Positions 25,790-58,350 of a DNA stretch of 64,000 bases are shown here, piece by piece. The position numbers were made by a program, and so were the translations under genes. The notes below the pieces were generated by a model, which was not told the origin of the DNA, did no database searches, and worked only from the letters and a program-made list of their open reading frames with translations. The DNA lies in NCBI GenBank assembly GCA_001464425.1, contig LNEK01000012.1, positions 62,001-126,000 on the forward strand, given 5' to 3'. The stretch comes from Alphaproteobacteria bacterium Ga0077535 (GTDB taxonomy: Bacteria > Pseudomonadota > Alphaproteobacteria > Caulobacterales > Aquidulcibacteraceae). The stretch's first letter is position 1, and each line of letters begins with the position of its first letter.

Positions 25790-25794
25790 GCGCC

Positions 25795-27713: not shown

Positions 27714-27764
27714 CAGCGCACGGCTGAAACCGCTTGGTGAGTGACAACGACAAAGGAGGTCTTC

Positions 27765-28031
27765 GTGAACGACGAAGAGCCAGACGGATACGCCATGCCT
27801 TTGCGCACCAGCTTGACACGCCCCATTCTGCTGGGCGGCGTGCCGCGCGCCTTCGCCATCCTCAACGCCACTATCGGCGCCGCGATCGGCTTTGGCCTGC
27901 AGCAGCCGTTCATCGGCTTTCCACTTTGGGCCGTGCTGCAAGGCGCCGCGGCGTGGGCCGCCGCGCGCGATCCCTGGTTTCTCGAAACTTGGCCACGGCA
28001 CTTGGCCAAGCCAACCTATTTGTCGGCGTGA
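27765..28031 (+). CDS. trbD: Conjugal transfer protein TrbD (VirB3 family)
   Basis: An 88-residue membrane protein. MPLRTSLTRPILLGGVPRAF is the typical VirB3/TrbD head, and two helices follow (AILNATIGAAIGFGL, then WAVLQGAAAWAA). GTG 27765 was preferred because AAAGGAGG lies just upstream. The product works with the TrbE ATPase, whose gene starts 10 bp later. Confidence 0.88.
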   Translation: MNDEEPDGYAMPLRTSLTRPILLGGVPRAFAILNATIGAAIGFGLQQPFIGFPLWAVLQGAAAWAAARDPWFLETWPRHLAKPTYLSA

Positions 28032-28041
28032 GGCGCGCGAG

Positions 28042-30471
28042 ATGTTTGATCTTCGCCCTTACGCTTCGACCGGCGCCAAGCTCGCCGACTTCCTGCCGTG
28101 GGCGGCGCTGATCGCCCCCGGCGTGGTCCTAAACAAGGATGGCGCCTTTCAGCGAACGCTCGCATTCCGCGGCCCTGATCTGGATTCCGCCGTCGCCGCC
28201 GAACTCATGGGCGCGAGCGGCCGATTGAACAACGCTTTTCGCCGCTTCGGCTCGGGCTGGTGCATTCACGTCGAAGCGCGCAGATCGCCGGCGCCAGGCT
28301 ATCCCGATAGCGAGTGGCCAGACGCCGTGTCGTGGCTCATCGACGAAGAACGTCGCGCTGTATTCGAGACGGCCGGCGCGCGCTTCGAGAGCCGCTATTT
28401 CCTCACGCTCGCGTGGCTAGCGCCCGCCGAACGGCAAGGAAAATTCGAAAGCCTCGTCTTTGAAGGCGGCGCGGAGACCGCCGCCGCAACGGACTATCGC
28501 CGCCACCTCGAACGCTTCTGCCAAGAAGCCGATCAGTTCATGGCGCTCCTCGAAACCGCAATGCCAGAAGCGCGCTGGCTCACCGACGAAGAGACGCTCA
28601 CCTATCTGCATGATTGTGTCTCCGACCGGCCCCACCGCGTCGCAGTGCCTGAGACGCCATTCCATCTCGACCAGTTGCTGACCGATGCCCCGCTCATCGG
28701 CGGGCTCGCGCCCACACTTGGCGCCAGGCATCTGAAAGTCATTTCGGTTCGAAGCTTCATCACCGAAACTGAGCCGGGGCTGCTCGACCAGCTCAACCGG
28801 CTGCCGATCTCGTATCGCTGGGTCACGCGTTTCCTGCCACTCGACCGCGAAGCGGCGCGGCGCGAGCTGGAGAAAATCCGCAAGCGTTGGTTCTCCAAGC
28901 GCAAGGGTTTACTCACGCTATTGCGCGAAGCGCTCTTCCGCGAAGAGGCGGCGCTCCTCGACAATGACGCGGCGAACCAAACGGAAGACGCCGATGTCGC
29001 CCTGCAAGAACTCGGCGCAGATGCCGTCTCAGCAGGATATGCGACACTGACGATCACGGTCGCTGAGGCCGACGAAGATCAGGCAGCCGAAGCTGTCCGG
29101 CAGGTCCAGCAGGTCGCGGACGCATTGGGCTTCGTTACGCAAGTCGAAAGCGTCAACGCCGTCGAGGCCTGGCTCGGCAGCTTGCCAGGCCAAGCTTATG
29201 CCGACGTACGCCGGCCGACCAGCGCGGTGTGGGCGGGACCGGAGCGCAACGCGCATCTCGATGCGCCGCCGCTTATGCTCACGGCGACCGATGGCGCTAC
29301 GCCGTTCCGGCTCGACCTTCATGTCGGTGATGTCGGCCATACGATGATCGTTGGCCCCACCGGCGCCGGAAAATCGGTGCTGCTCGCGACACTCGCGGCG
29401 CAATGGCTCCGTTATGCTGATGCGCAGGTATTTCTCTTCGACAAGGACCGGTCCTCGCGCGCGACCATCCTCGGTCTGGGCGGCGATTTCTTCGATCTTG
29501 GCGAGGAGGACGCGCTAGGCCTCCAGCCGCTCGCGACGATCGATGATTCCGCCGAACGCAGCTGGGCGCTGGACTGGATTACGAGCCTCATCGCCAGCGC
29601 CAATGTCATGGTGACGCCCGAACTGCGCGCCGAGCTCTGGCGCGTGCTGGAGGTGCTGGCCCAGCGTCCACTTGAAGACCGGACGTTGACGCTCTTTGCG
29701 GCACTGGCCCAAGACGCGAGCGTTCGCGCTGCGCTGGCGCCGTTCACACGCGCTGGACCATACGGGCGCTTGATCGACCACGATCAATCGACTTTGGGCT
29801 ATGGCCGCGTCCAGGCTTTCGAGATGGGCGATCTCATGCGCCGTCCGCATGCGGCGAGCGCGGTTCTCTCCGTGCTCTTTCACGCGCTGGAGCGTAGGTT
29901 CGATGGCAAGCCCACTTTGCTCGTTCTGGACGAAGCGTGGCTCTTCCTTAAGGACGCGGCATTCGCTTCCCAAATTCAGGATTGGCTGAAGACGCTCCGC
30001 AAAAAGAACGTCGCCGTTATCTTCGCCAGCCAGGAACTCGCCGACGTTGAAGCGAGCCCGATCGCCTCGACCATTATTGAAGCCTGCCCTACGCGCATCT
30101 TCCTGCCTAACGACCGCGCCCGCGAGCCACGTTCGGCCGCGTTCTACGAATCACTGGGGCTCAACGCTCGCCAGATCGCGCTCGTCGCCACGGCGACGCC
30201 GAAGCGCGACTATTATCTAGCCTCACGCGCAGGCTGCCGCGTGTTCGAGTTGGGACTCGGCCCCGCCGCGCTCGCCTTCGTGGCTGCCTCGCGCCCCGAA
30301 GACCACGCGTGGATGGATCGCGTCATCGCAGAAGGCGGCGCCCAAAACTTCGCGCTCGCCTGGCTTGAAGCACGTGGCCTACGCGACGCCGCCGATGCGG
30401 TGCGCCGCTTCAAGCAAAAGGCCGGATCGCCAGCAGTGCCGGCCGAACAATCCTTGATCGCCGCGGAATAG
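28042..30471 (+). CDS. trbE: Conjugal transfer ATPase TrbE (VirB4 family)
   Basis: An 809-residue ATPase of the transfer channel. The N-terminal CagE/TrbE/VirB domain (residues about 1-400, MFDLRPYASTGAKLADFLPW) is followed by Walker A VGPTGAGKSVLL near residue 436 and Walker B LLVLDEAWLFLKD. The final part carries FASQELADVEASPIASTIIE, usual for VirB4. ATG 28042 is 10 bp after trbD. Length is normal for the family. Confidence 0.95.
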   Translation: MFDLRPYASTGAKLADFLPWAALIAPGVVLNKDGAFQRTLAFRGPDLDSAVAAELMGASGRLNNAFRRFGSGWCIHVEARRSPAPGYPDSEWPDAVSWLIDEERRAVFETAGARFESRYFLTLAWLAPAERQGKFESLVFEGGAETAAATDYRRHLERFCQEADQFMALLETAMPEARWLTDEETLTYLHDCVSDRPHRVAVPETPFHLDQLLTDAPLIGGLAPTLGARHLKVISVRSFITETEPGLLDQLNRLPISYRWVTRFLPLDREAARRELEKIRKRWFSKRKGLLTLLREALFREEAALLDNDAANQTEDADVALQELGADAVSAGYATLTITVAEADEDQAAEAVRQVQQVADALGFVTQVESVNAVEAWLGSLPGQAYADVRRPTSAVWAGPERNAHLDAPPLMLTATDGATPFRLDLHVGDVGHTMIVGPTGAGKSVLLATLAAQWLRYADAQVFLFDKDRSSRATILGLGGDFFDLGEEDALGLQPLATIDDSAERSWALDWITSLIASANVMVTPELRAELWRVLEVLAQRPLEDRTLTLFAALAQDASVRAALAPFTRAGPYGRLIDHDQSTLGYGRVQAFEMGDLMRRPHAASAVLSVLFHALERRFDGKPTLLVLDEAWLFLKDAAFASQIQDWLKTLRKKNVAVIFASQELADVEASPIASTIIEACPTRIFLPNDRAREPRSAAFYESLGLNARQIALVATATPKRDYYLASRAGCRVFELGLGPAALAFVAASRPEDHAWMDRVIAEGGAQNFALAWLEARGLRDAADAVRRFKQKAGSPAVPAEQSLIAAE

Positions 30472-30481
30472 GAGAGGGACC

Positions 30482-31198
30482 ATGCAGAAGGCACTCAGAT
30501 CTCTCGTGATGCTCGGCTTCGCCGCGATCGTCGCGGTGACGCCAATGGCGCCGGCGCGCGCGCAGATGACCGTCATTGATCCGGCCAACCTGGCGCAGAA
30601 TCTGCTGCAAGCCGCACGCGCGCTCCAGCAGATCAACAACCAGATCCGCCAAATCGAGCAGGCGACGCAAATGCTGCGGCAAAACCCGCTGCAGCTCTCA
30701 CCCGAGCTTACCCAATCCATCTCTGAAGCGCGCGAACTCTTCAACACCGCCCAAGGCATCGCCTTCGAGGTCAATCAGGTCGGCGAAAACCTGCGCACGC
30801 TCTATCCCGAAACCTGGGAGGACTTCGATCTTGCAGGCGTGCTGCAGCAATCCGAGCGCTGGGAGCAAGAGAGCCGCGAGAGCCTACAGCGTGCCATGGA
30901 AGCGGAAGCGCGCGCCGCGCGCTCGATTGAGGGCTCGCGGAACCGCATCGACCGCGCCTTGCAATCGTCATCAAGCGCCGAAGGACAGACCGGCGCCATC
31001 CAGGCCAGCAACCAATTGCTCGGAGTCACGGCAAGCCAGCTCGCTGAAATCCACGCGCTCTTGATCGCGCAAGGGCGTGCGCTTGAAACCGAGCGCATGG
31101 AACGTCTCGCGCGCGAAGAACGCGCCCGTGAAATCCAGCGCCGCGCCTTCCCGACCGAAACCACGCGGTCAACCGAACCGGCGCGCACGGCGTTCTGA
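30482..31198 (+). CDS. trbJ: Conjugal transfer protein TrbJ (VirB5 family)
   Basis: A 238-residue secreted protein: signal peptide LVMLGFAAIVAVTPMAPARAQ, then a long amphipathic coiled coil with NQIRQIEQATQMLRQNPLQL, typical of TrbJ/VirB5 minor pilus proteins. A Glu/Arg-rich tail (RMERLAREERAREIQRR) follows. It starts 10 bp after the trbE stop; trbL begins one base after its stop. Confidence 0.9.
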   Translation: MQKALRSLVMLGFAAIVAVTPMAPARAQMTVIDPANLAQNLLQAARALQQINNQIRQIEQATQMLRQNPLQLSPELTQSISEARELFNTAQGIAFEVNQVGENLRTLYPETWEDFDLAGVLQQSERWEQESRESLQRAMEAEARAARSIEGSRNRIDRALQSSSSAEGQTGAIQASNQLLGVTASQLAEIHALLIAQGRALETERMERLAREERAREIQRRAFPTETTRSTEPARTAF

Positions 31199-31199
31199 C

Positions 31200-32234
31200 A
31201 TGGATCCGGCTTCCCTCAATTCGTTTCTCGACCAGTTTCTGGCGCTGGCGGATTCAGGCTTCGGCCTCATCCAGGGCGACGTCACATACGTCCTGAATGC
31301 GTTGATCGTCATCTCGATCACGCTCGCTGGCGCGCAATGGGCGCTAGCCGGTGAAGCGCCGATGGCGCCGTTCTTCCGTAAAGTTCTGTTCGTTGGCCTC
31401 TTCGCCTTCCTCGTGAACAATTGGGCGAGCCTTTCCACCATCATCGTCCGCTCCGGCGCGCAGCTTGGCCTCAATGCTGGCGGCAACGGCATGAGCATGG
31501 CGGATTTGCACAACCCAGGGCGCGTCGGCCAGATTGGCGTCGAGCTTTTCGGCCGCACTGCGGCGATGGCCGAAGGCATGAACATTTTCACCGACGCCTT
31601 CGCCATGGCGACGGTCTGGGTCTCGGCCGTGCTGGTGATGCTCGGCTTCTTCGTGTTGGCGATGCAACTCTTCGTGTCGCTGATCGCTTTCAAACTTGGC
31701 AGCCTCGCCGCGTTCGTCGCGCTTCCGTGGGGCGTGTTCAACGGCACATCCTGGGTGGCTGAGCGGCCGCTCGGCTGGGTCGCGGGGTGCGCGATCAGAC
31801 TCTTCGTTCTCGCCTTCATCGCCTCGATCGCCATCACCTTCGTCAACACGCTGCCAGCAACGTTTACGCTCAACGCCGGTGGCGTGCTCAACATCTTCCT
31901 GTTTGGCCTCACCGTGCTAGCGCTCGCGTGGTTCGCCCCGATGCTGGCGAGCGAAGTGGTGCAAGGCCAGCCGCATCTGTCCGGCTCTGACGCTATCCGC
32001 ACTGGTGTAGGCGCGACCTTCGCCACTGCTGGCGGCGTCTACATGGCGCACGCCGTCTACAAGGCCGCGACGCAGAACATGATCAAGGCGCAACGCGCCG
32101 TTGGCGGCGCCGCGCAAAGCGCGCGTAACCGTCTCGGCGGAGGCCGCGGCGGCGGGAAAGGCGGCGGAGCGCAAAAAGCGGCCATCAACTACAGCGCCAT
32201 GCAGCCCAAACCGAAATCAGGAAGCAGCACATGA
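31200..32234 (+). CDS. trbL: Conjugal transfer protein TrbL (VirB6 family)
   Basis: A 344-residue polytopic inner-membrane protein with about six helices (ALIVISITLAGAQWAL, VLFVGLFAFLVNNW, ALVMLGFFVLAMQLFVSLIAFK, and others). The Gly/Ser-rich tail GGGRGGGKGGGAQK is typical of TrbL. It forms part of the membrane pore. ATG 31200 lies one base after the trbJ stop; its end overlaps trbF (ATGA). Confidence 0.92.
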   Translation: MDPASLNSFLDQFLALADSGFGLIQGDVTYVLNALIVISITLAGAQWALAGEAPMAPFFRKVLFVGLFAFLVNNWASLSTIIVRSGAQLGLNAGGNGMSMADLHNPGRVGQIGVELFGRTAAMAEGMNIFTDAFAMATVWVSAVLVMLGFFVLAMQLFVSLIAFKLGSLAAFVALPWGVFNGTSWVAERPLGWVAGCAIRLFVLAFIASIAITFVNTLPATFTLNAGGVLNIFLFGLTVLALAWFAPMLASEVVQGQPHLSGSDAIRTGVGATFATAGGVYMAHAVYKAATQNMIKAQRAVGGAAQSARNRLGGGRGGGKGGGAQKAAINYSAMQPKPKSGSST

Positions 32235-32914
32235 ACTTCGCGTTTCGCTCACCGATGCGCTCTTATGCGCCAGCACCCGCCGACACGCCGTATAAACGCG
32301 CGCAGCAGGAATGGGATGCGCGCATGGGCTCCGCCGTGCTGTCGGCCCGCGCCTGGCGCGCCATCGCTTTTGGCGCGCTCGGTCTTCTCGGCGTCAGCGT
32401 CGTTTCACTCGTTATAGTGGCGCTCCAACAACGGACCTTCGTCCACGTCGTTGAAGTCAGCCCCGAAGGACAGGTGATGAACGTGCGCGCCGCCGACGGC
32501 CGCTGGTCGCCGACGGAAGCGCAGACGGCCTATCACCTCGGTCAGTTCATCCGCCTCGTGCGTTCGTTGCCGACTGATGGCGTCGTGCTCCGCGAGAACT
32601 GGCTGCAAGCCTATCGTTTCCTCACGCCGCAAGCCGCCGCGCAGCTCACCGAGATCGCACGCCAAGACGACCCCTTTCTCTCGCTCGGCCGTGTCGGCCG
32701 CACAGTCCACATCCGTTCAATGATCGCCCGCTCGAACAATGCCTGGGAAGTCACCTGGGTTGAGCGCGCCACCAACGCGACCGGGACGACCGATCCAGAA
32801 GTTTATTCCGGCGTCTTCACCGTCACCACGCGTGCCCCGCGCAACGCCGACGAAATCGCCAACAACCCACTTGGCCTCTTGATTTCGGACTTTTCCTGGA
32901 GCCGTGAACGATGA
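32231..32914 (+). CDS. trbF: Conjugal transfer protein TrbF (VirB8 family)
   Basis: A 227-residue bitopic protein: a cytoplasmic head (PYKRAQQEWDARMGSAV), one helix (AFGALGLLGVSVVSLVIVAL) and a periplasmic VirB8 fold with VEVSPEGQVMNVRAADGRW, SLPTDGVVLRENW and WEVTWVERAT. It contacts TrbI and TrbG in the channel. Start and end overlap the neighbouring genes by 4 nt. Confidence 0.92.
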   Translation: MNFAFRSPMRSYAPAPADTPYKRAQQEWDARMGSAVLSARAWRAIAFGALGLLGVSVVSLVIVALQQRTFVHVVEVSPEGQVMNVRAADGRWSPTEAQTAYHLGQFIRLVRSLPTDGVVLRENWLQAYRFLTPQAAAQLTEIARQDDPFLSLGRVGRTVHIRSMIARSNNAWEVTWVERATNATGTTDPEVYSGVFTVTTRAPRNADEIANNPLGLLISDFSWSRER

Positions 32915-33768
32915 GCGCGCGCATCTCTGCCATCTTGCCGATGATGCTCATCGCGGCGTCGCTTGCGGCCACATCAGCCGATGCGCAAACGCGCCGCGCC
33001 CGGACGCCAACGCCCGTCGAGACACTTGCCGCCGCAAACACCGCCGCGCGGCAAAGCCCAACGCGAGACGGCTTCGTTCAGGCGCGTCACGTCTATGCCT
33101 ACGAGCCCGGCGCCATCTACGAAGTGTACGCGCATCCAAGCTATGTCTCGACCATCCTGCTCGAGCCGGGCGAAACGCTCACCGACATCGCCGCCGGCGA
33201 CACCTCGCGCTGGATGGTGACGCAAGCTGACAGCGAAACTGCGGAAGATCCACGCACCGTCGTGTTGGTCAAACCGAATGCATCAGGCCTTCGAACCAAC
33301 ATTGTCCTGATCACCGATCGCCGCACGTACTTGATCGAAGCGGTGGCACAGACGGGCGCGGCATACGCAGCACAAGTTGCGTGGTCCTACCCGCAAGCCG
33401 AGGGCGCCGCACAGGCCGCACCGATCGACACCATCAACCTCAACTATCGTATCCGCACCATACGAGGCAGCCGTCCTGCTTGGCTGCCCACACGTGTGTT
33501 CGACGATGGACGCCGCACCTGGGTGGAATTTTCGCCGGATGTGGACGCGAGCGATCTGCCGCCGCTCTTCGCCGTCACGGGCGAGGGCGCCGAACTGGTG
33601 AACTACCGCACGCAGCAGGGCCCATCCGGCCAACGCTACATGATCGATCGCATCTTCGACGTCGCCGAACTGCGGCTCGGCGTGCGCTCGCCGGTGATCG
33701 TGCGCATCGAGCGCAATCCAACAGATCCGCAACGCCGCGCGCGCAACCGTGTAGGCGGGCGCCCATGA
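32911..33768 (+). CDS. trbG: Conjugal transfer protein TrbG (VirB9 family)
   Basis: A 285-residue secreted outer-channel protein. Signal peptide (ILPMMLIAASLAATSADAQ) is followed by the VirB9 segments YEPGAIYEVYAHPSYVSTIL, EPGETLTDIAAGDTSRW and the C-terminal beta domain DDGRRTWVEFSPDVDASDLP. It forms the outer-membrane core with TrbI. It overlaps both neighbours by 4 nt. Confidence 0.93.
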   Translation: MSARISAILPMMLIAASLAATSADAQTRRARTPTPVETLAAANTAARQSPTRDGFVQARHVYAYEPGAIYEVYAHPSYVSTILLEPGETLTDIAAGDTSRWMVTQADSETAEDPRTVVLVKPNASGLRTNIVLITDRRTYLIEAVAQTGAAYAAQVAWSYPQAEGAAQAAPIDTINLNYRIRTIRGSRPAWLPTRVFDDGRRTWVEFSPDVDASDLPPLFAVTGEGAELVNYRTQQGPSGQRYMIDRIFDVAELRLGVRSPVIVRIERNPTDPQRRARNRVGGRP

Positions 33769-34865
33769 GTGTCGCTACGCAAACACCGACGCCGCAGCCA
33801 GCGCCGCCGCCCAACGTCGCGATCCGCGCCAAGCCGCCGTCGCCACGCCGCCTCTCGCGCAAGGTGCTGGTCGCCGCGACTCTAGCGGCAGGCGCTGTCG
33901 TTGCATTTGCCCTGGTCAACGGCTTGTCGGAGCGTCCCGATCGCCGCGCTGCGCAACAGCAAGAAGTCGCTGCCGCGGGTGGTCCACCTGAATCCATCCG
34001 CGGCGCCAGCGATCAGTATGGCGCTCATGATCTTGCCGGCGAAGAGCTGCAGCTCGGCGATGCCGATTTGGTCGCGGTTGAAGGTGACGGCGCCGATCTC
34101 CAGCCGCCGCGCGATCCGATGTGGGCCAACAGCACGAATGGAGGCGCTGGTGGTCCGGCCGCGCCGCCCGCGCCCGATCCGCAAGCCGTGGCGCGCACCT
34201 CTGCGATTCTATTCACGCGCGACGCCGAGAACGCGCAGTCGCCGCTGGATACCGACGCGCGCCTCAATGCGCGCCTTACGCCGCCTGGCTCGCGCTACGA
34301 GATCAAGGCCGGCGACGTCATTCCAGCGGCCCTCGTTACCGCTCTCAATAGCGATCTGCCAGGCCGGATCATCGCGCAGGTGACGGCGCCCGTGTACGAC
34401 ACAATCACCGGCGACCATCTCCTGATTCCGCAAGGCGCGCGTCTCATCGGCACATATGAAAGCGGCGTGCGCTACGGCGACAACCGCATCTTGTTGGTCT
34501 GGAACAGGCTCATCTTGCCAAACGGGTGGAGCATCAATCTCCAGGAAATGAACGCAACAGATGCATCGGGCGCGTCTGGCGTGCGTGACAGCGTCGACAA
34601 CCATCTTGGCCGCCTCGGAGTCGCCATCGGCCTCTCGGCGATCATCTCCGTCGTGGCGAATGAGGCCGAAGACGATGGCGAAGACAACACGTCATTGACC
34701 CAGAGCGTCGGCGACGCTGCAGCCACTCAAGCTGCACAAACTGGGAGCCGCATTGTCGACCGCGAACTGCAGGTGCATCCAACGCTGCGCGTCCGCGCCG
34801 GCGCGCCGGTGCGCGTGCTGGTGACACGCGACATCCAGCTCCGGCCCTACGTCCCACGCCATTGA
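33765..34865 (+). CDS. trbI: Conjugal transfer protein TrbI (VirB10 family)
   Basis: A 366-residue inner-to-outer membrane scaffold protein. A cytoplasmic head rich in Pro is followed by one helix (VLVAATLAAGAVVAFALVNG), a Pro/Gly-rich periplasmic linker, and the VirB10 core with YEIKAGDVIPAALVTALNSD, IPQGARLIGTYESGV and the RVRAGAPVRVLVTRDI end. ATG 33765 overlaps the trbG stop. It is the last structural trb gene; a small HTH protein follows by 4-nt overlap. Confidence 0.93.
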   Translation: MSVATQTPTPQPAPPPNVAIRAKPPSPRRLSRKVLVAATLAAGAVVAFALVNGLSERPDRRAAQQQEVAAAGGPPESIRGASDQYGAHDLAGEELQLGDADLVAVEGDGADLQPPRDPMWANSTNGGAGGPAAPPAPDPQAVARTSAILFTRDAENAQSPLDTDARLNARLTPPGSRYEIKAGDVIPAALVTALNSDLPGRIIAQVTAPVYDTITGDHLLIPQGARLIGTYESGVRYGDNRILLVWNRLILPNGWSINLQEMNATDASGASGVRDSVDNHLGRLGVAIGLSAIISVVANEAEDDGEDNTSLTQSVGDAAATQAAQTGSRIVDRELQVHPTLRVRAGAPVRVLVTRDIQLRPYVPRH

Positions 34866-49054: not shown

Positions 49055-50389
49055 TCATTGCTTCGGTAGGATCAGGCCGCGCTTTTGCTGGATCTCCACA
49101 GTGATCTTGGCGCTGGTTTGCACATAAACCTCACAGTTCATGGCGCTGTCCTTGTGGGCGGTGAGGTGGCGAACCTTATCGAGGGCGACGCCCATCTCTT
49201 CGGCCTCGGTGGCCGCACTGTGGCGCATATGGTCGTAGATGCGTTTGCGACCGCCAGCCTTCACCACCTGCTCTTGCAGCGTGATCATGTGGCCGCGCAT
49301 GCGGGCGTCGTCCCTGACCGGCTCGTAGGGATCGCCGAAGGGATCGGTGACCAGAAAGAACGCGCCGCTCTCGTCGATCTCACGCAGCAGACGATCACTG
49401 AGAGGAATGAATGTCGGCTGTCCGGTTTTGCCGCGGTCAAAGTCGATTCCGCGATAGCCTTCGCGTTCGACAACATGGGTGGCTTTCTCCCAGGTCATGA
49501 CGTCGGTGCTGTCAGCCGCGGTCTCATACATCAATCGGATGAGAATTGATCCGCCGCGCCAGGCAACCTTGCGCCGTCTGCCGATTGCGTTCTGCCAGCC
49601 CGGCGTGGTGAGGGCGACGTGGCAATAGAAATCTACATCTGTGCGCGACCAGCACTCGACGTTGGATTTGCGCCCGCCTTTGACGCGCTTCCTCAGTCTG
49701 CGCTTTACGCTGGCCTTCCTGCCGTTGAGCGGGTTGGTTTCGAGCACGCCCTCTTCGCCGGCAATGCCGAACAATTGGCTGAGCGCATCGCGGATGTTTT
49801 TGCGCTGACCTGGTGTGAAGAGGTTCAGATAGTCGCGGACCTGCAGCGGCGTCATCAACGAGACAGGGGCGTGGCGTATCGAAATTGACCAAGCCATCAC
49901 CGAACGCAGCGAGCGTATATAAAGTTTGCGTGTTCTTGGCTCGCAGTTCAGCCACTCTTCCCGTGCTCTGGGATCGGGATTAAGTGCGGCGTCAGATGTC
50001 GACAGCCGACCTTCGACTGCGGCGAGCAGATCTGGTCCGCCCCATTTTTCGATGAGCCACGGCGCGCTGCCGACGCGTGTCGTTGGAGGGCGATCATCGG
50101 CGCTCGACCGACCCACTCTGAGCGCAGCAAAGAGGGCGGCAGCGTCTTCTTTGACGCGGATGATGCATTGAAGATCGTCGGGCCCTTTGCAGTAAGGCTT
50201 TGCCTTCGGCAGATTAATGGTTGGGGGCCAACCGTCGGGGCGCAATCGCGCCGGCACGTGGAATTGGATGAGCCATGTACCGGCCGCGGCCCCGCGGCGC
50301 CGCAGATATTTTGGCACGACGTACAAGCCCAGCCAGGGCCAAGCGGATCGCTTCTTCATTGACCGTCCAACCTGTGGCGGTTTGCTCAC
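49055..50389 (-). CDS. int: Tyrosine recombinase / site-specific integrase
   Basis: A 444-residue recombinase. The N-terminal domain (WPWLGLYVVPKYLRRRG) and core-binding domain (LYIRSLRSVMAWSISIRHAP) are followed by the catalytic domain: IRLMYETAADSTDVMTW (first Arg), then YDHMRHSAATEAEEMG and LTAHKDSAMNCEVYVQ (His and active-site Tyr). The usual HxxR box has Asp where His is common. Start GTG 50389, with ATG 50359 as an option. It is downstream of the AlpA-like gene, whose frame overlaps it, forming one integrase module. Confidence 0.8.
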   Translation of the reverse strand: MSKPPQVGRSMKKRSAWPWLGLYVVPKYLRRRGAAAGTWLIQFHVPARLRPDGWPPTINLPKAKPYCKGPDDLQCIIRVKEDAAALFAALRVGRSSADDRPPTTRVGSAPWLIEKWGGPDLLAAVEGRLSTSDAALNPDPRAREEWLNCEPRTRKLYIRSLRSVMAWSISIRHAPVSLMTPLQVRDYLNLFTPGQRKNIRDALSQLFGIAGEEGVLETNPLNGRKASVKRRLRKRVKGGRKSNVECWSRTDVDFYCHVALTTPGWQNAIGRRRKVAWRGGSILIRLMYETAADSTDVMTWEKATHVVEREGYRGIDFDRGKTGQPTFIPLSDRLLREIDESGAFFLVTDPFGDPYEPVRDDARMRGHMITLQEQVVKAGGRKRIYDHMRHSAATEAEEMGVALDKVRHLTAHKDSAMNCEVYVQTSAKITVEIQQKRGLILPKQ

Positions 50390-50633
50390 TTCGCTTTCCG
50401 GCGAGATGATCTTCTACTTCGCAGCGTCGCCAGCGATCCACGTCAATCTTCGGCGGAAATTTCCCAGCGTTGATGCGGCGGCGCAGTTGCTGCGCATTCC
50501 AGCCTGTCCGCGCGCGCACCTCGGCGCCGTTGATCCAATCGCTCGCGATGACGTCGTCGGTTTGGGGCTCACGCATCATCGTGCTGCCGTCAGAGAACGG
50601 AAATCGAATTTTGCGCATATTAGCAATCATCAT
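50214..50633 (-). CDS. AlpA/excisionase-like protein (3' end uncertain)
   Basis: The clear part, DWINGAEVRARTGWNAQQLRRR and INAGKFPPKIDVDRWRRCEV, is an AlpA/Xis-type winged helix, used as recombination direction factor or regulator. The N-terminus MIANMRKIRFPFSDG is at ATG 50633. The frame runs on to 50214, 176 bp into the integrase gene, and that part is probably an overlap artefact or a shared region. The gene is preceded by the 80-bp leader repeated at 52881. Confidence 0.55.
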   Translation of the reverse strand: MMIANMRKIRFPFSDGSTMMREPQTDDVIASDWINGAEVRARTGWNAQQLRRRINAGKFPPKIDVDRWRRCEVEDHLAGKRSEQTATGWTVNEEAIRLALAGLVRRAKISAAPRGRGRYMAHPIPRAGAIAPRRLAPNH

Positions 50634-50710
50634 GGTCAGGGCTTGCGGCTTCTCCCGTAGGCTGCGCCGCGCCCCGGAGTGTGTCCTGCTTGGCGTGGCG
50701 GGGGACAAAG
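50631..50710 (-). repeat. AlpA leader repeat, copy A
   Basis: About 80 bp that match 52881-52961 at roughly 80 percent by eye, sharing GGCTTGCGGCTTCTCCCGT and GGCGGGGGACAAAG-like ends. Both copies sit just upstream of an AlpA-like gene on the minus strand, with their own ATG frames, so this is a shared leader or integration-module signature. Confidence 0.6.
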
Positions 50711-51295
50711 CGAAGCCATGCTCGAGGCCGTTATGGCAAGATAGCGTTGCTTCGAGGTCGTGCTAGTCTGGGGCGCGCTCGATCCATATCGATGTGCGCG
50801 CAATGCACGCCCCTAACGCGGAGATCAACGAGCTAGCGAATGTAGACAAAACACCACACTCTTCGGCAAAATCGCGATCTTGAATGATTTCCGAAGGTTA
50901 GTTTTTTTGCCGGTGGAGTTGTCGGCATACGCGCCCGTTGAGCGCGCAAAAACCGCGTGGAATAAGCAAAAACAACTCGCTCCGCACAATCGAGTGGGAA
51001 TGATTCAGGGCCTTTCGCTGCCTTTCGACAACAATCGAAAAAGCGGCCCAAATACCTGAGAAGTAAGACAAAATCTCTCGACTACGTTCACCAACTGGCG
51101 CGGGTCGTCGAAATCTTTTGACGGTATAGCTGACGGTGCGCTCAGCGTTGCCCAATTGACCTTTGCTCCATACCGTCGCCCGAAATCTCGTCGCGACGGT
51201 ATTTCGGTCGGTGAAAACGCTATCCTATTCAATTGGATGCGCTGAAATTGAGCCCGAAAAATGCGTGACGGTATTTCTTATGGAGGTATTTCGTC
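50711..51295. other. AT-richer intergenic region between two integrase modules
   Basis: About 590 bp without a convincing gene. Its 3' end holds the inverted repeat at 51170-51202 and two copies of GACGGTATTTC. It could contain an attachment site or integrase arm sites; the boundaries cannot be told without a second genome. Confidence 0.4.
51170..51202. repeat. ATACCGTCGC / GCGACGGTAT inverted repeat
   Basis: Perfect 10-bp arms (51170-51179 and 51193-51202) with a 13-nt spacer. GACGGTATTTC recurs at 51195-51205, 51267-51277 and inside the integrase gene at 51466-51476. Such clustered sites are expected for integrase arm-binding or an operator. Confidence 0.5.
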
Positions 51296-52548
51296 GTGCT
51301 CAGTGATGTGCGCTCAAGGCTCTGAAACCAAGGCCAAAAACCTACAAAGTTGCGGACCGAGACGGCATGTACGTTGTGGTCTCGCCGGCGGGCTCGGTCG
51401 TCTTTCGGCTGGATTACAGGCTGAACGGCCGGCGTGAGACGCTGACCATCGGCAAGTACGGGCGTGACGGTATTTCATTGGCGGACGCACGCGAAGCGTG
51501 CGTCAAAGCGCGAAAGACCGTCAAAGCCGGCCTCTCGCCCGCGCAGGAAAAGCAGCGTGAAAAAGTGCGCCTGAAGGCTGCGCAAACCTTCGGTGATTTC
51601 GCCGAGCGCTGGTTTGCGGAATCCTCGATGGCCGACAGTACGCGCTCGATGCGCCGCTCGATCTACGCCCGTGATCTAGAGGGGGCCTGGAAGAAGCGAC
51701 TGCTCAGCGAGATCAGCGCCCACGATCTTCGCGCGTCTGTCACCGGATTAAGGAACGCGGTGCGCCGGCGACCGCCGTCCACGTGCGCGACATCACCAAG
51801 CAGATATTTAGATTTGCAATCTTGCACGGCGAGAAGGTCGCCAATCCGGCCGACGAAGTCGGGCCCGCCTCGATCGCGACCTTCGCGCCCAAGGACCGCT
51901 CATTGGTCTGCCAATGAAGTTCGCCTGATGCTGCGCCTTTTGGAGCAGGTGACGACATTGCCGACCATACGCCTAGGTTTGAAGCTCATCCTGCTGACCA
52001 TGGTGCGCAAGAGTGAATTGCAGGATGCGGTCTGGGACGAGATCGATTTCGAGAACGCCGTCTGGTCGATACCGAAGGAGCGGATGAAGCGGCGCCATCC
52101 GCACAACGTCTATTTTTCGCAGCAAGCGCTCGACATCTTTGTGGCCCTGAAGACCTGCGCCGGCAATTCTAACTACGTATTGCCGTCGCGCTATGACTCC
52201 GATGCGCCGATGTCCCGCGCGACTTTCAATCGGGTCACGTCGGCGATCGCCGAGCTTGCACGCAAAGAGGATCTGCCGCTTGCGCCCTTTACGGTGCATG
52301 ATCTGCGACGCACCGGCTCGACGCAGCTCAATGAATTGGGCTTCAACCGCGACTGGATCGAAAAGTGCCTGGCGCACGAAGACCGGACCTCGTCGCGAGG
52401 CGTCTATAATCGCGCCGAGTACGAGCCGCAGCGCCGGCACATGCTGCAGGAATGGGCCAACATCATCGACGCCTGGTCGCGCGGTGAGCGCTATGCGGTG
52501 ACGCTTGCGCCGCCAACGCCGGTCATAGCGCTCCAGTCCGATATCTAG
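51296..52548 (+). pseudogene. P4-type integrase with three indels
   Basis: This integrase belongs to the P4/DUF4102 type: KPRPKTYKVADRDGMYVVVS near the start, then a catalytic end with TMVRKSELQDAVW, FTVHDLRRTGSTQL and AHEDRTSSRGVYNRAEY (Arg, His-Arg and Tyr in place). Its natural start is GTG 51296 behind TGGAGG. One base is missing after about codon 6, one near 51732 (where RIKERGAPATAVHV is pushed out of frame) and one extra is present near 51906, returning the frame to ANEVRLML. Each can be undone by a single base. A continuous frame from ATG 51367 exists, but its middle 55 or so residues are garbled. Confidence 0.75.
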
Positions 52549-52550
52549 CT

Positions 52551-52835
52551 TCAGAGAGCTTTCTTCGTCGGCGCCTTTACGGGAGGTGCTTTGCGCCGAC
52601 CGACATCTGGATAAGCGACATGGGGATGTTCCTCAGCCCGCCGCTTCTGCAGCCATTGTTGGACTTCGCCTAGATCCCAGACGGCGCACCGTGCGGTGAG
52701 ATAGAAGCGCCGCGGGAACTCGCCGCGCAGCTCCATTTCGTAGATCGTCGTATCTGCAAGCGGCACTAATTCGCGCAGCTGCGCGCGGCGGATGGGGCGG
52801 ACGTCGTGCGGATCGTTCTCGTGCGTGCGAGGCAT
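52551..52835 (-). CDS. AlpA/excisionase-like protein
   Basis: A 94-residue protein: RRAQLRELVPLADTTIYEME, then LRGEFPRRFYLTARCAVWDL with GEVQQWLQKRR is a complete AlpA winged helix. A basic tail (RRKAPPVKAPTKKAL) may bind DNA. The start at 52835 gives MPRTHENDPHDVRP. It is convergent with the second integrase, whose stop is 2 bp away, and lies behind the leader repeat copy B. Confidence 0.75.
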   Translation of the reverse strand: MPRTHENDPHDVRPIRRAQLRELVPLADTTIYEMELRGEFPRRFYLTARCAVWDLGEVQQWLQKRRAEEHPHVAYPDVGRRKAPPVKAPTKKAL

Positions 52836-52880
52836 GATTGCGCCAATCGAAATAGAACGTCGCAACATGATAGCGCGCGT

Positions 52881-52961
52881 CATGGCCAAGGCTTGCGGCT
52901 TCTCCCGTGAGCCTGCGCCGAGCGCCAAAGCGTGTCTTGATTGGCGTAGCGGGGGACAAAG
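52881..52961 (-). repeat. AlpA leader repeat, copy B
   Basis: Counterpart of the leader at 50631-50710. It begins CATGGCCAAGGCTTGCGGCT and ends in a GGGGGACAAAG block. It lies upstream of the AlpA gene and directly next to the end of the short relaxase gene. Confidence 0.6.
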
Positions 52962-52998
52962 AGACGCGAGGATCGGCCCACCCCCACGCATTTGCTTT

Positions 52999-54147
52999 CT
53001 AGCGCTCGGGCCCGCGATGGACGCCGCGTTTCACTTCTGGCGTGGGCGTAGAGCGATAGGGCGGCGTCAAAGTGCGCTCGCGCATGAGCCCTTTGCGAAT
53101 GTCGAGATGGAGTTCCATCGCCTTAAGCCGTTCGCGCCAATCGCTGTTCATTTGGAGCACATTGCGACGCGGCTCGGATGCAAGCCCCAGACGCTGCAGT
53201 TCGCGTGCGCGCAGCTTTAACGCCTGCGTAACCGCGGGATCGCGATTGGGCGCTTCGATCGCGGCGATCGCAAGCTTGCCCTCCTTCACATGTCGGGCGA
53301 GGAGGGCGTCAAGACGCGTCGGCCGATGCGCACGCGCCTCCCGGAGCAAAGCTGCATTCTCGTCGCCGCGGGTTCGAGGGCCGAGGCGCTCGGTGGCGGC
53401 GTTGCGCGCGATTTCACGCAGGCCATGTTTGACGAACTCGCGCGGCAGCATGAGCGGCCTTCCATTGGCGTGGCGCCCACGCAGTACGATGTGACTATGC
53501 GGATTGTCTGTGTCGTAATGATTGACCGCCACCCATTCCAGGCGAGACCCAAGCTCGCTCTCGGCGCGCTCCATCACGGTGCGCACATAGGATTTGAGAT
53601 CGCCGAGACGACCGCCATTCTCGGGCGAGAGGATGATGCGGAAGTGACGCCGATCCTCGCGCGCCCACACCGCCATGCGCGCCCGCCCATCGACCGTGTC
53701 GCGAAGGCCGTCATAGAAGACCGCGCGCTCGCCACTGAGATAGTCGGCGTGCGCCCGCGCCGCAGGTTCTGGCGCCTCACGCGTCTGGGATTTGTGCGCC
53801 TGTTCCAGATCGCCGCGCGCCGCCTCACGCGCGATGTAGCGCCCATGCGCCGCAAGGCTCGCGCCGCCGCCGCCGCCATGGCCAAAGAAGTGCACTTTCG
53901 ACACCGCCCGCTGACGCATGTCAAAGTCGCCGGAACCGGCGCCCGTCGTACTGCGCAGGCCAAAACGTTTGGACAGGCCGAGCCTGGCGTCGAGGCCTTT
54001 CGATAACCGCGCCGCGGGCGCTTCTGCTTCTTGCTGGGGCCGAACGCGCCGCGCAGGTCGTCTCGATCTATCGGCGCCACAAATCGCATAGAGCTGCGCG
54101 CGGAAAATACTGACGCCGCAACATTGGCCGCCGCGCCGCCGGCGCAC
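52999..54147 (-). CDS. VirD2-like relaxase, lacking a usual C-terminal domain
   Basis: A DNA-nicking relaxase of about 382 residues. FFGHGGGGGASLAAHGRYI (a likely catalytic Tyr at 104), AWVAR-like helices and NHYDTDNPHSHIVL (His210, His217, His219) form the HUH-type active site. Family members of this type usually continue for about 200 more residues (a DUF3363 domain), but this one stops at 52999, next to the AlpA leader repeat, so the end has probably been replaced. The N-terminus is unclear: an Arg-rich lead runs to residue 50, and another frame (RFVAPIDRDDLRGAFGPSKK) may hold the true start. M77 (53919) is the conservative start. Confidence 0.7.
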   Translation of the reverse strand: MRRRRGGQCCGVSIFRAQLYAICGADRSRRPARRVRPQQEAEAPAARLSKGLDARLGLSKRFGLRSTTGAGSGDFDMRQRAVSKVHFFGHGGGGGASLAAHGRYIAREAARGDLEQAHKSQTREAPEPAARAHADYLSGERAVFYDGLRDTVDGRARMAVWAREDRRHFRIILSPENGGRLGDLKSYVRTVMERAESELGSRLEWVAVNHYDTDNPHSHIVLRGRHANGRPLMLPREFVKHGLREIARNAATERLGPRTRGDENAALLREARAHRPTRLDALLARHVKEGKLAIAAIEAPNRDPAVTQALKLRARELQRLGLASEPRRNVLQMNSDWRERLKAMELHLDIRKGLMRERTLTPPYRSTPTPEVKRGVHRGPER

Positions 54148-54242
54148 AACACGCGATTAAAGCTCGATGACGCCGTCATAGGTGCGCGCGCCCTGAACAC
54201 TGGAGGCAATGTGCAGACACATTTTTCAGTTGATCGCATACA

Positions 54243-54310
54243 TTGGTTTTTTCCAAGCGGATACAGGCGCCTGGCGACACGCGCACAGCGCGCTTTATCT
54301 TGCCCTCACA
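54243..54310 (+). other. Candidate oriT with IncP-like nic site
   Basis: Between the relaxase and the TraF gene (286 bp, AT-richer). TTTATCTTGCCC at 54294-54305 contains TATCTTG^C, matching the IncP/VirD2-type nic consensus YATC[C/T]TG^Y, with the nick expected between 54302 and 54303. Just upstream are CGCGC-ACA-GCGCG (54280-54292), the palindrome CAGGCGCCTG (54264-54273), and TTGG...CCAA around a T6 loop (54243-54256). Confidence 0.55.
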
Positions 54311-54433
54311 ACTTTTTCTGCATTTTGAATTGGTTGCGGCGCCTCGATGTTTTCTCTTCGCACGTTCGGAGCGAGCCACAGACTAAGCAGATATTGCCGC
54401 GCTTTGGATGGCGATTGCCTATTGCACTAAGAG

Positions 54434-54922
54434 TTATGGGTTGAGGGGACGCCAGACTTGCTCGACCGCGTCGATCGAGATCGGTCCCCAATAGCGCCCG
54501 TCGAAACTATCTTGGCTATCGCCCGCAAGGAAAATCTCGCCCTCGCGCAGCACGCGGCATTCAGACCAAGCCGGCAACACCTCGTCATTGCTGTCATAGG
54601 CTGCGCGTCTCAAAACCATTTCGCCGCGCAACACCACCTTGTCGCCCATTGCGCAGACGTGATCGCCAGCGACAGCGGCGATGCGTTTGATAAAGCGGTC
54701 GGAGCGATCGTCGTATGCTCGCGTGCGGGCATAATCTGGCGCTACAGTCGCCGCCGCGACGCTCACCAGAGCGCCCAATTCGAGCGGCCCATTCGATCTC
54801 ACATAAAAGCCGATCGGCACGCTCGCCGAGCGGTTATAAATCACCCATGGGCTCGAACGCGGCGCGCCGGCAAAGGCGGCTGCAACAGCGATCGCAAGCA
54901 CAAAAGCGACAAAACGTGTCAT
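54434..54922 (-). CDS. traF: TraF-type S26 signal peptidase
   Basis: A 162-residue membrane protease of the conjugation system that matures the pilin. One N-terminal helix (FVAFVLAIAVAAAFAG) is followed by ASVPIGFY with catalytic Ser34, then FIKRIAAVAGD with Lys79, and GDSQDSFDGRYWGPIS, the usual end box. ATG 54922 drops a basic leader from the longer frame. It cuts TrbC pilin, whose gene lies in the trb operon. Confidence 0.9.
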   Translation of the reverse strand: MTRFVAFVLAIAVAAAFAGAPRSSPWVIYNRSASVPIGFYVRSNGPLELGALVSVAAATVAPDYARTRAYDDRSDRFIKRIAAVAGDHVCAMGDKVVLRGEMVLRRAAYDSNDEVLPAWSECRVLREGEIFLAGDSQDSFDGRYWGPISIDAVEQVWRPLNP

Positions 54923-54962
54923 CGGACAAGCTTGGCGCCTTTGTGCGAGGAGGCGAGGCTGC

Positions 54963-55877
54963 TCACGCGTCGGAGATCTGACTGGCCGGCGTCTCACCCA
55001 TAAGATGCAAAAGGTAATCCGCAGCAGCTTGCGCTTTTCCGGCGGCGGTGAGGAATGCTGACGGCTGCTCTTTCAGGATGTCGAGCCAGCTTTGAATATA
55101 GGCGGCGTGATCTTCCAGGTGATCTGGCGGCAGACCGATCACCGCGCCGACGAAGGCGGCGCAGAGTTCGGCGACCAGCTCTTCCATGGCGTAGCCGCAA
55201 TCGGCAAAGCGCTTTTGGCCAAAGTCGCGGTCAAGCCGGGAGGGGTGGCGGGTCCAATGGCCAAGCTCATGGGCAAGTGTCGCGTAATACTGGGTGCGGT
55301 CGGCGAAGGCGTCCGGCGGCGGCATCTGCACGTGATCGGTTGATGGCGCATAAAAGGCGCGGCCGCCGCCAATCCGGATCGTAGCCGGCACCTTTTCGAA
55401 GCGCGCAGCATAAGCGTCGGGTGAGGGTGAGGGCGCTTGGGGCGCGGATCCTTGCGCCTCCTCCAGACCATCGATCTGTTCTCGGTTGAAAACGACATAG
55501 CCGCGCAACACTGCGCGGCCTGAGCCCTCGTCGCTCTCATCATCTTCCGCGGCGCGCGCCTCAGCTTTCGTAAGCGGCTTATAGAAGATGACATAGGCGC
55601 CGTGTTCGCCTTTGCGGACCTGGCCGCCCTGCGCCAGCGCTTGCTTGAAGGTGTACCAATAGGGCGAGGCGTAGCCTGCTTCGAGCGCTGCGGCCCAAAG
55701 CGCAACCACGTTCATGCCGCGATAACGCTGACCATTGGCGCGCAAGGGCAGGACGCTGCTTGCATCTCCGCCCTCCCAAGGCTTGGTCCAAGGCCGCACG
55801 CCGCGTTTCAGCAGGGCGGCGATCGCGGCGGTGACGCGCTGCGCTGGCGGCAGCTTGGTTGAATCGTATGAGGTCAT
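54963..55877 (-). CDS. ardC: ArdC-family antirestriction protein
   Basis: A 304-residue protein. An N-terminal ssDNA-binding domain (RVTAAIAALLKRGVRPWTKP, GQRYRGMNVVALWAAALEAGY) is followed by a zinc metallopeptidase domain with HELGHWTRH (203-211), then EELVAELCAAFVGAVIG. ArdC proteins protect incoming conjugative DNA from host restriction. ATG 55877 was chosen over a longer leader. The gene sits 40 bp before traF, in the same direction, and just after the long inverted repeat. Confidence 0.9.
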   Translation of the reverse strand: MTSYDSTKLPPAQRVTAAIAALLKRGVRPWTKPWEGGDASSVLPLRANGQRYRGMNVVALWAAALEAGYASPYWYTFKQALAQGGQVRKGEHGAYVIFYKPLTKAEARAAEDDESDEGSGRAVLRGYVVFNREQIDGLEEAQGSAPQAPSPSPDAYAARFEKVPATIRIGGGRAFYAPSTDHVQMPPPDAFADRTQYYATLAHELGHWTRHPSRLDRDFGQKRFADCGYAMEELVAELCAAFVGAVIGLPPDHLEDHAAYIQSWLDILKEQPSAFLTAAGKAQAAADYLLHLMGETPASQISDA

Positions 55878-55892
55878 GATGCGAGCTCCGTT

Positions 55893-56047
55893 CGCCGGAC
55901 CATTCCGGCGCAGAGCCGCCTTGGGGCGCTCCTGCGCGCACGCGGCGCACCGCTTCGGCCGCAACGGAGTGGAGGACGGCGGCTTGTCCGCCGTTGCGCC
56001 GCGTGCGTGCGGAGCGCGGGGCTCTAAAGCGCCGGAATGGTCCGGCG
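55893..56047. repeat. Long imperfect inverted repeat between ssb and ardC
   Basis: Perfect 19-bp arms (CGCCGGACCATTCCGGCGC at 55893-55911, its complement at 56029-56047). Further pairs inside, AGAGCC/GGCTCT-like and CGCACGCGGCGC/GCGCCGCGTGCG, make a hairpin of about 155 bp. Each arm is itself a small palindrome. It may be a regulatory RNA, a transcription barrier or a site used when DNA enters as a single strand. Confidence 0.6.
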
Positions 56048-56099: not shown

Positions 56100-56462
56100 C
56101 TAAGCTGCAAGGTCTGCCTTGGGCTTGGCCCGAGCGAGGATCTCGATATCGCCAGGCGGCCCGACGACGAACTCGACCACGTATTTGGTCTGGCCTTTGT
56201 CGTCCTCATAGGAGCCGGGACGGACTTGGCCGACGATGCGCACGCGCGTGCCTTTTTGCACCATGGTCTCGATGCGTTGGACCTTAGCCGGCGCGAACAC
56301 CGCCACGCGATGCCAATAGGTTTTCTCGTTCCACTCGCCATCGTCGCGCTTCCAGCGTTCGGAGGTGGCGACGGAGAGGATTGCGATCTTCTTGCCGCCC
56401 TTGACGTCTTTCAGCTCGCACGTGCCGACGTTGCCGATGATTTCAAACGATGCCTTATCCAT
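56100..56462 (-). CDS. ssb: Single-stranded DNA-binding protein (SSB, short)
   Basis: A 120-residue OB-fold protein. It starts DKASFEIIGNVGTCELKDVK and continues KIAILSVATSERWKRDDGEW with TYWHRVAVFAPA, typical of SSB. VRIVGQVRPGSYEDDKGQTK, then VVEFVVGPPGDIEIL closes it. It lacks the long acidic tail of housekeeping SSB. ATG 56462 was chosen because the longer frame is arginine-rich and unlike SSB. It likely protects DNA during transfer, with ArdC. Confidence 0.85.
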   Translation of the reverse strand: MDKASFEIIGNVGTCELKDVKGGKKIAILSVATSERWKRDDGEWNEKTYWHRVAVFAPAKVQRIETMVQKGTRVRIVGQVRPGSYEDDKGQTKYVVEFVVGPPGDIEILARAKPKADLAA

Positions 56463-56906
56463 TGTCTTTCTCCAGGTGCGCGGCGGGCCGATCCCGCCGC
56501 GGTCGCCTTCGCGACGTCCATGGCAAGGCGGCCGTCCAAGGAAGCGACAGCGGCGAGGGCGCAACGGGTCGTGGCGCGGCGCGCAGCCGAAGGCGAGCAC
56601 TCGGGGCACTTGCGCGCTCGTCCGAGGGCAGCACGAATGGACGTTGATGAGCGAAGGCGCCGCGCGGGCGCGGCGGCGCGTGCGGTGAAGACTTGAGGCG
56701 CGAAGAAATCAGAACGTCGGCATTGGATGAGCCGTTTGGCGCGGAAGAGCTGACGCAATCTATTGGTTAAGCGACCGCGCAAGATCACACGCCACGAGCG
56801 TAAACGGCAAAGTCGCGCAATCGCGATCGCGATCGAGGTCTTGCGCTTGGCGCCAATCCAGGAGCTAATCGCAATTTAGAGTTGCGGGCTAAAAGAGGAG
56901 GCGATC
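56463..56906. other. Non-coding stretch between ssb and luxR
   Basis: About 440 bp with only Arg-rich shadow frames. TCGCGATCGCGA (56821-56832) is a perfect palindrome, about 75 bp before the LuxR start. Promoters for the divergent units probably lie here; no lux-box was seen apart from the one at 57680. Confidence 0.4.
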
Positions 56907-57641
56907 ATGCAGCCGCGCATCAATTGGTCCTTCGCCGAAGCATGCGATGACGCGCTCACCATCGCGGCGATCCAGTCGACATTCATGCGTGAGATCAGAG
57001 CGCTTGGGTTCAGCTACGCGGCGTGCGCATCGCATGTCGATCCACTGCGGCCGCCGCCAGGCGCGGTGATGATGGTGGATTATCCGCACGCTTGGCTCGA
57101 GCGCTTTAGCGCGCAGCGTTACGCACAGCGCGATCCGGTCTTTCATGCGGCGAGAACCCAGGCGCTGCCGTTTCAATGGTCGGATCGTCGCTTTCGTGCG
57201 GCATTGGACGACGATCAACTCGTCATTCTGACGGAGGCGGCTGCAAATGGCTTGCGTGAAGGCTTCACCATTCCGATCCATTCGCCCAATGCGCTGCCGG
57301 CCTCATGTTCGCTTGCCATTGGCGAAGATGGCGTTGATCCGCTCAACGTTCGCGCGGCGCACTGGTATGCGGTCTACGCGCACGAAGCTGCGCGGCGCCT
57401 GTTGCTGGCGGATACGCCAGCGGACAAACCGGTCTTAAGCCCTCGCGAGCGCCAGTGTTTGGCCCTCGTCGCCCAAGGCAAAGACGACTTCTCGGTTGGC
57501 ATGATTTTGGGGATCAGCGAACACACGGCCCACAACACGGTGCGCCGGGCGATGCGTAAGTACGGCGTCGCCACACGCATCCAGGCTTTTGTCAGGGCGT
57601 TGCGCGACCGCGAAATCCGCTTGGAGGACGTCGCCGATTAG
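56907..57641 (+). CDS. LuxR-family quorum-sensing regulator
   Basis: A 244-residue protein. The N-terminal autoinducer-binding domain has AACASHVDPLRPPPGAVMMV, then YAQRDPVFHAARTQALPFQW and EGFTIPIHSPNALPASCSLA, where conserved Trp, Tyr and Asp of TraR/LuxR proteins are visible. The C-terminal LuxR helix-turn-helix is SPRERQCLALVAQGKDDFSV with ISEHTAHNTVRRAMRKYGVA. Strong site AGAGGAGG before ATG 56907. It probably senses the AHL made by the next gene and may control transfer. Confidence 0.92.
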   Translation: MQPRINWSFAEACDDALTIAAIQSTFMREIRALGFSYAACASHVDPLRPPPGAVMMVDYPHAWLERFSAQRYAQRDPVFHAARTQALPFQWSDRRFRAALDDDQLVILTEAAANGLREGFTIPIHSPNALPASCSLAIGEDGVDPLNVRAAHWYAVYAHEAARRLLLADTPADKPVLSPRERQCLALVAQGKDDFSVGMILGISEHTAHNTVRRAMRKYGVATRIQAFVRALRDREIRLEDVAD

Positions 57642-57679
57642 GACGCCGCGCCCTTCGGTGAGCCGGATCAGAGGTCAAT

Positions 57680-57695
57680 AGGCCTGATCAGGCCT
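57680..57695. promoter_or_regulatory. Lux-box-like palindrome before luxI
   Basis: AGGCCTGATCAGGCCT is a perfect 16-bp palindrome, ending 55 bp before the LuxI start. Its size and place fit a LuxR/TraR-binding site that gives positive feedback on AHL synthesis. Confidence 0.6.
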
Positions 57696-57750
57696 GTTTC
57701 GCGCCAGAGGCGAAAATCGTATCTCTCCGCGCGCCGCAGGGAGAGCGTTC

Positions 57751-58350
57751 ATGATCCACATTGTCACCGCCGAAAACCGCAGCTTGTTTCGGCACGCGCT
57801 CATGGAAATGCACCTGCAGCGTAAGCAGGTCTTCATTGATGAGCTTGGCTGGCCATTGCAGGCGGACGCTGGCGTTGAGATTGACGAGTATGACAGCGAA
57901 GAGGCCATCTATCTCATTGAAGCGCAGTCACCGCGCGCGCCGGTCACCGGATCGGCGCGGCTTTTGCGCACTGATCGGCCGCATCTGTTAGGCGACCGCT
58001 TCTCACATTTGTGCGCGTCGGCGCCGCCGGCCGGGCCTGACATCTGGGAGGCGACGCGGTTTTGTCCTGCGCCAATGCTGGCGCGCATGATCGCCGCCAT
58101 CATGGAAACTGCACTGATCTTCGGAACGCGCCGGGTCAGCTTTGTTGCGAGCGCAGCCTTGGCGCCGCTCGCGCTCAAAGTGGGATGGAGCGCCAAGGCG
58201 CTTGGACCTACGCATCGGGCGGGACGCGAGCGTGTGCGCGCTTTTGCGGCTGACATTGATGCTGAAGGGCTCGCCCGCGTGCGTGCGCAGAACGCAATTG
58301 CTGGCCCGCTCACGCGCTATGCGCCTGGCACGCTCAATCGCGCCGCATAA
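57751..58350 (+). CDS. Acyl-homoserine-lactone synthase (LuxI family)
   Basis: A 199-residue enzyme making an acyl-homoserine lactone signal from acyl carrier and SAM. MEMHLQRKQVFIDELGWPLQ, EIDEYDSEEAIYLIEA, and GSARLLRTDRPHLLGDRFSH with IWEATRFCPAP match the LuxI core (conserved Arg, Phe, Trp, Asp, Glu, Arg positions). The acyl chain length is unknown. The phyH gene starts 9 bp after its stop. Confidence 0.92.
   Translation: MIHIVTAENRSLFRHALMEMHLQRKQVFIDELGWPLQADAGVEIDEYDSEEAIYLIEAQSPRAPVTGSARLLRTDRPHLLGDRFSHLCASAPPAGPDIWEATRFCPAPMLARMIAAIMETALIFGTRRVSFVASAALAPLALKVGWSAKALGPTHRAGRERVRAFAADIDAEGLARVRAQNAIAGPLTRYAPGTLNRAA

Follow-up and report, generated by a model that had tools for sequence, protein, structure and literature searches.

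A probable origin of transfer beside a short RlxS-related relaxase gene in an alphaproteobacterial integrative and conjugative element

In the integrative and conjugative element (ICE) ICEMlSymR7A, the origin of transfer (oriT) is located between the traF operon and rlxS, and it is functional when cloned (PMC11963761). A related gene order was described for the ICEs of the Tn4371 family, in which traF adjoins the gene of an RlxS-like relaxase and trb genes are present (PMC2789088). The sequence ATCCTG is the biochemically defined core of MOBP nick sites and is required for cleavage by TraI of RP4 and by VirD2 (PMC3772185). Here we compare these systems with a locus in a 64-kb stretch of DNA (the window) from the alphaproteobacterium Ga0077535, for which an earlier note had proposed a candidate oriT with the nic sequence TATCTTG^C. 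The site is of an ordinary type, but the variation around it is of interest.

The site and its likeness to described origins of transfer

The candidate site lies in a gap of 286 bases (54148-54433) between the ORF of a MOBP relaxase (52999-54147, minus strand) and a gene for a traF-like signal peptidase of the S26 family (54434-54997, minus strand; PF10502, with TIGR02771 under its cut-off). The GC content of the gap is 51-58%, versus 60-70% in most of the flanks. Along the plus strand, the order is CGCGC (54280-54284), ACA, GCGCG (54288-54292), CTT and TATCTTGC (54296-54303). Thus, the foot of the proximal inverted repeat CGCGC-ACA-GCGCG (54280-54292) is located 3 nt before TATC, and TATCTTGC agrees with the MOBP nic core (C/T)ATC(C/T)TG(C/T). 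The AT-richer gap and the spacing of three bases between repeat and nic sequence, both pointed out in the earlier note, are exactly as it described them. By analogy to other MOBP systems, the nick is likely to occur on the plus strand between G54302 and C54303. Further upstream, the palindrome CAGGCGCCTG (54264-54273, plus strand) corresponds to a conserved CA(A/G)NNNN(T/C)TG block, which occupies approximately the positions -31 to -19 when related sites are compared in an anchored alignment. A profile (R1), which was built from 29 sites including that of the window, matched the region 54235-54330 on the plus strand when searched against the own genome (48.9 bits, E=2.0e-12), and we consider this region to be the probable core oriT. 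A comparison of 53900-54700 with Rfam gave no match.

The order S26 peptidase (traF)-oriT-relaxase, with traF upstream of both, is shared with ICEMlSymR7A and with RlxS-type ICEs and plasmids (MOBP1), as are the antisense orientation of the nic core and a trb-type type IV secretion system (T4SS), the oriT of ICEMlSymR7A being compared by its description. In contrast to these systems, the relaxase of the window lacks the domain DUF3363, and ardC and ssb adjoin traF. In ICEMlSymR7A, rdfS and msi107 (encoding a transglycosylase) are located upstream of the oriT; neither was seen among the genes annotated around the site of the window. The inverted repeat directly 5' of ATC(C/T)TG^C is a feature of MOBP origins that is also seen in the oriT cleaved by TraI of RP4 (IncP) and in the Ti borders cleaved by VirD2 (for the core, PMC3772185), although the core in the window has a T in place of a C, and the flanks and the relaxase are only distantly related. 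Judged by their description, the Tn4371-family ICEs have in common with the window the position of traF beside an RlxS-like relaxase gene and the presence of trb genes; they differ in that their relaxase was described as similar to both VirD2 and RlxS, and in their hosts.

The nic motif by itself is at chance level. In the 64-kb window, YATCYTGY has 17 matches versus 11.8 expected, and we therefore refrained from judging the site by its motif. The 5-bp hairpin is also not unusual for the base composition, since an equally good one arises in approximately 13% of shuffled sequences (p ~0.13). These two values are what could be put forward for the view that a degenerate nick consensus came to lie by chance beside a chance hairpin in GC-rich DNA. 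The window harbors one other exact copy of TATCTTGC (50736-50743, minus strand), which is without the TT prefix and is not matched by the oriT profile. Copies of YTTTATCTTGC on the contigs C20 and C35 are located within reading frames, without the context of an oriT.

Conservation of the nic core and of the hairpin

Relatives of the relaxase were sought in 60 genomes of the family to which the host belongs. Dozens were found, often several per genome, with approximately 50-66% identity. In 58 of the 59 related loci, the 440 nt upstream of the relaxase gene contained, in antisense orientation, a copy of TTATCTTGC that deviated at no more than one position. Controls of the same size gave 1/59 for the sense strand, 1/59 inside the gene, 2/53 further upstream and 2/58 downstream. 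In almost every locus with a short relaxase, the strand of the site is the same and its distance to the gene nearly the same. When 31 dereplicated sites of short relaxases were aligned, the column information peaked exactly on TTTATCTTGC; it reads TTTATCT(T/A/G)GC followed by C and T, and the nic core is invariant or nearly so except for its second T.

The conservation extends to more distant systems. Nine plasmids with full-length RlxS relaxases (L107-L114 and L116), which span alpha-, beta- and gammaproteobacteria (hosts: Hydrogenophaga, Delftia, Acidovorax, Agrobacterium, Mesorhizobium, Bradyrhizobium, Paracoccus, Ketogulonicigenium and Thiothrix), all contain TT(A/G)TC(C/T)TGC upstream of the relaxase gene, in antisense orientation. 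In seven of them the site is approximately 400-440 nt away from the annotated rlxS start, the starts in the other two being assumed. The plasmid version in Mesorhizobium, Bradyrhizobium and Paracoccus is TTATCCTGC, and thus includes the ATCCTG core. It is this conservation in related loci, and not the motif or the hairpin, that lifts the site above chance. The chance origin considered above has practically no probability left: it is already refuted by the recurrence of the site at the same place and on the same strand in the related loci and, likewise, in the distant RlxS plasmids. The earlier note had stated that its proposal would fall if the sequence failed to be conserved along with the relaxase; the 58 loci show the opposite.

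The foot of the hairpin is found two bases ahead of TTATC in many relatives, as it is in the window. Around the clade to which the window belongs, the arms are CGCGC/GCGCG or GGCGC/GCGCC. Because the register of the hairpin shifts between clades, which rules out one fixed hairpin for all relatives, covariation was analyzed inside a single clade. Among its eight distinct sequences, 96.9% of the cells are paired, while control structures obtained by sliding gave 31-48%; a compensatory change on both sides was found in three of the eight hairpin pairs. A simple 5' hairpin is absent from some clades, and in some a repeat flanks the nic site instead, so the hairpin is not universal. For the sequence 54266-54312 of the window, the predicted DNA fold of minimum energy favours a longer, alternative hairpin.

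The stem together with the CTTTATCTTG tail scores as terminator-like on the plus strand when a loose pattern is applied. The conserved element could accordingly be a transcription terminator or have another regulatory function in the gap, with no nick site at all. However, the transcripts on which a plus-strand terminator acts would run antisense to the genes on either side. A true run of T's is absent from the tail, and conservation is strongest at TATCTNGC and not at the T's. Since the core additionally matches the biochemically known MOBP nick site (PMC3772185), we regard a purely regulatory function as very improbable, and return to the interpretation of the site as an oriT.

The short relaxase and the surrounding element

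The relaxase matches PF03432 above the cut-off, and its true start may be downstream of the GTG at 54147. Its candidate catalytic residues are Y104 in motif I and H210, H217 and H219 in motif III (HxDxxxPHxH), all of which are invariant in the aligned relatives. The match to NF041267 (RlxS) is partial: the score of 175.4 bits covers only the profile positions 30-322 and remains below the cut-off of 850, which applies to 654 positions. DUF3363, which is present in the relaxases of L082 and L109, is missing. Owing to this lack and to a score far under the RlxS cut-off, we assign the protein to a short RlxS-related subfamily and not to RlxS. In the literature, we found no description of this group of short relaxases or of its ICEs.

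The missing half of the protein raises the question of whether the site is a genuine oriT by descent in an element that is no longer transferring, with the short relaxase as a truncated remnant. In line with this, the score is 175 versus a cut-off of 850, and two integrase genes are located side by side. However, approximately 50 relatives are equally short, with open frames mostly of ~390-490 codons and with invariant motif residues, so that shortness is the rule in this clade; the interpretation as a truncated pseudogene was set aside for this reason. The trb genes are open, too. Altogether, we consider loss of transfer unlikely, although clearly less so than a regulatory role of the site.

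A T4SS cluster with traG, trbB, trbC, trbE, trbL, trbF and trbI was recognized by Pfam matches at 23783-34865 on the plus strand, so that the element, like ICEMlSymR7A, contains traG and a trb-type system. In many relatives, trbE and the short relaxase gene share a contig, at distances from 12 to approximately 130 kb. We had initially suspected a mobilisable element without an own T4SS; the trb genes, present in the window and close to the relaxase genes of relatives, rule this out. The presence of the trb-type T4SS in the window thus points to the oriT of an ICE. In agreement with the proposal of the earlier note, an oriT is what the conservation, the anatomy of inverted repeat plus nic core, the strand polarity and the position of the site beside traF lead one to expect. 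Taking into account also the T4SS genes and the covariation of the hairpin in related sites, we propose, with a probability of roughly 94%, that the region 54235-54330 serves an ICE as its oriT.

On the side of traF follow genes for an ArdC-type anti-restriction protein (54963-55964, minus strand; PF08401 and PF18818) and a single-strand DNA-binding protein (ssb; 56100-56609, minus strand; PF00436, TIGR00621 above the cut-off). With traF as the first gene, they form the predicted leading region, beside which a quorum-sensing pair of the LuxR/LuxI type is located (56907-58350, plus strand; PF03472/PF00196 and PF00765). In at least 34 loci, ardC is found on the traF side and in the orientation of the relaxase gene.

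By analogy to MOBP relaxases, transfer could proceed as follows. The relaxase, with or without helper proteins, would bind the excised element at the palindrome and hairpin; Tyr104 would then cut the plus strand at TATCTTG^C and remain joined to the 5' C. The plus strand would be unwound rightwards and exported via the TraG/Trb system of the element, whereby traF, ardC, ssb and the quorum-sensing genes would enter the recipient first and the relaxase gene last. Since traF, ardC and ssb are on the minus strand, the incoming plus strand would serve as the template for their expression. In plasmids, SSB and anti-defence genes of the leading region are oriented for transcription from the strand transferred first (Samuel et al., PMC11541004).

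On the other side of the relaxase gene are a P4-type tyrosine integrase (51367-52548, plus strand; PF00589 and PF13356) and an AlpA-like excisionase candidate (52551-52991, minus strand; PF05930). A second, more distant tyrosine recombinase (49055-50389, minus strand) has a weak match to PF00589 under the cut-off, and a homologue adjoins the relaxase gene in L050. Each of the two recombinases is accompanied by a small AlpA-like or similar gene, and the 5' regions of these small genes have a 43-nt repeat in common, whose copies at 50616-50658 and 52866-52908 are 81% alike; the region 49055-52991 may have arisen by tandem or nested insertions. Words similar to ACGGTATTTC are repeated at 51100-51330, upstream of the P4-type integrase, and could possibly be arm-type binding sites near an att site. 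A search for att sites revealed no clear long pair of direct repeats bounding the element, and no tRNA was found in the 64-kb window.

Variants of the nic core and copies without a relaxase gene

The nic core depends on the clade. Besides TATCTTGC, the variants TATCTAGC, TATCTGGC and TAACTTGC occur, for example in L050, L068, L071, L075, L079, L080 and L081, and they follow the relaxase clades. On a tree of 63 relaxases, short and full-length, the cores are TTATCTTGC (34), TTATCTAGC (16), ATATCTTGC (5), TTAACTTGC (4), TTATCTGGC (2) and two singletons, and 10 changes of the nic label were counted versus 26.4 in shuffles. This suggests co-evolution of nic core and relaxase, at a strength limited by the fact that shared descent alone would also cluster the labels.

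The contig C16 of the same genome encodes a related full-length relaxase with TAATCTTGC upstream of its gene. As the nic cores of the two sites are nearly alike, the oriT of the window could be used mainly in trans by the relaxase of another element such as this full-length RlxS. However, the two origins are unlike in their flanking hairpin and palindrome, and the window possesses its own conserved relaxase. Predominant use in trans thus seems improbable to us, and we favour use of the oriT by the relaxase encoded beside it.

A further site was found on the contig C40 of the same genome (L122:5371-5471). It consists of the same blocks as the oriT of the window but has a different hairpin, CGCACC-GCAA-GGTGCG. 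No relaxase match was found on C40, and the surroundings of the site resemble both flanks of the trb cluster in the window, as though an ICE had degenerated and kept its oriT.

Exact matches of CTTTATCTTGCNCTACRC in related genomes were located away from the relaxase genes found there in all seven cases: on the minus strand at L164:5071 and 16112, L167:1063, L199:~1514 and L198:~5949, and on the plus strand at L163:6207 and 7931. Direct searches revealed no RlxS-type relaxase in the stretches around six of them, while the surroundings of the site in genome G059 were inspected as an ORF list only. The apparent orphans on G047:C4, G037:C191 and G042:C9 are at contig ends and were left out of the count. 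Five of the seven sites are approximately 0.9-1.4 kb downstream of an Rhs core (Rhs toxin-immunity genes). The assumption that an oriT-like site accompanies each Rhs module was put to a forward test, in which eight other Rhs loci were without it; the site is therefore not a general Rhs feature.

Tentatively, one may speculate that the nick cores TATCTTGC, TATCTAGC, TATCTGGC and TAACTTGC changed along with the short relaxases, and that the copies without a relaxase gene are trans-mobilised passengers spreading with the ICEs. We consider this doubtful, but less so than a loss of transfer in the element of the window.

The proposed oriT is of interest for several reasons. What was a guess from a motif is now an oriT prediction with good support, to which a likely nick position and a predicted direction of transfer can be assigned; the match to dozens of related elements strengthens the prediction and at the same time reveals unusual variants. 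The clade-specific nic variants are a ready set for studying how MOBP relaxases read their site. Last, the copies without a relaxase gene make hitch-hiking through oriT mimicry testable in environmental alphaproteobacteria.
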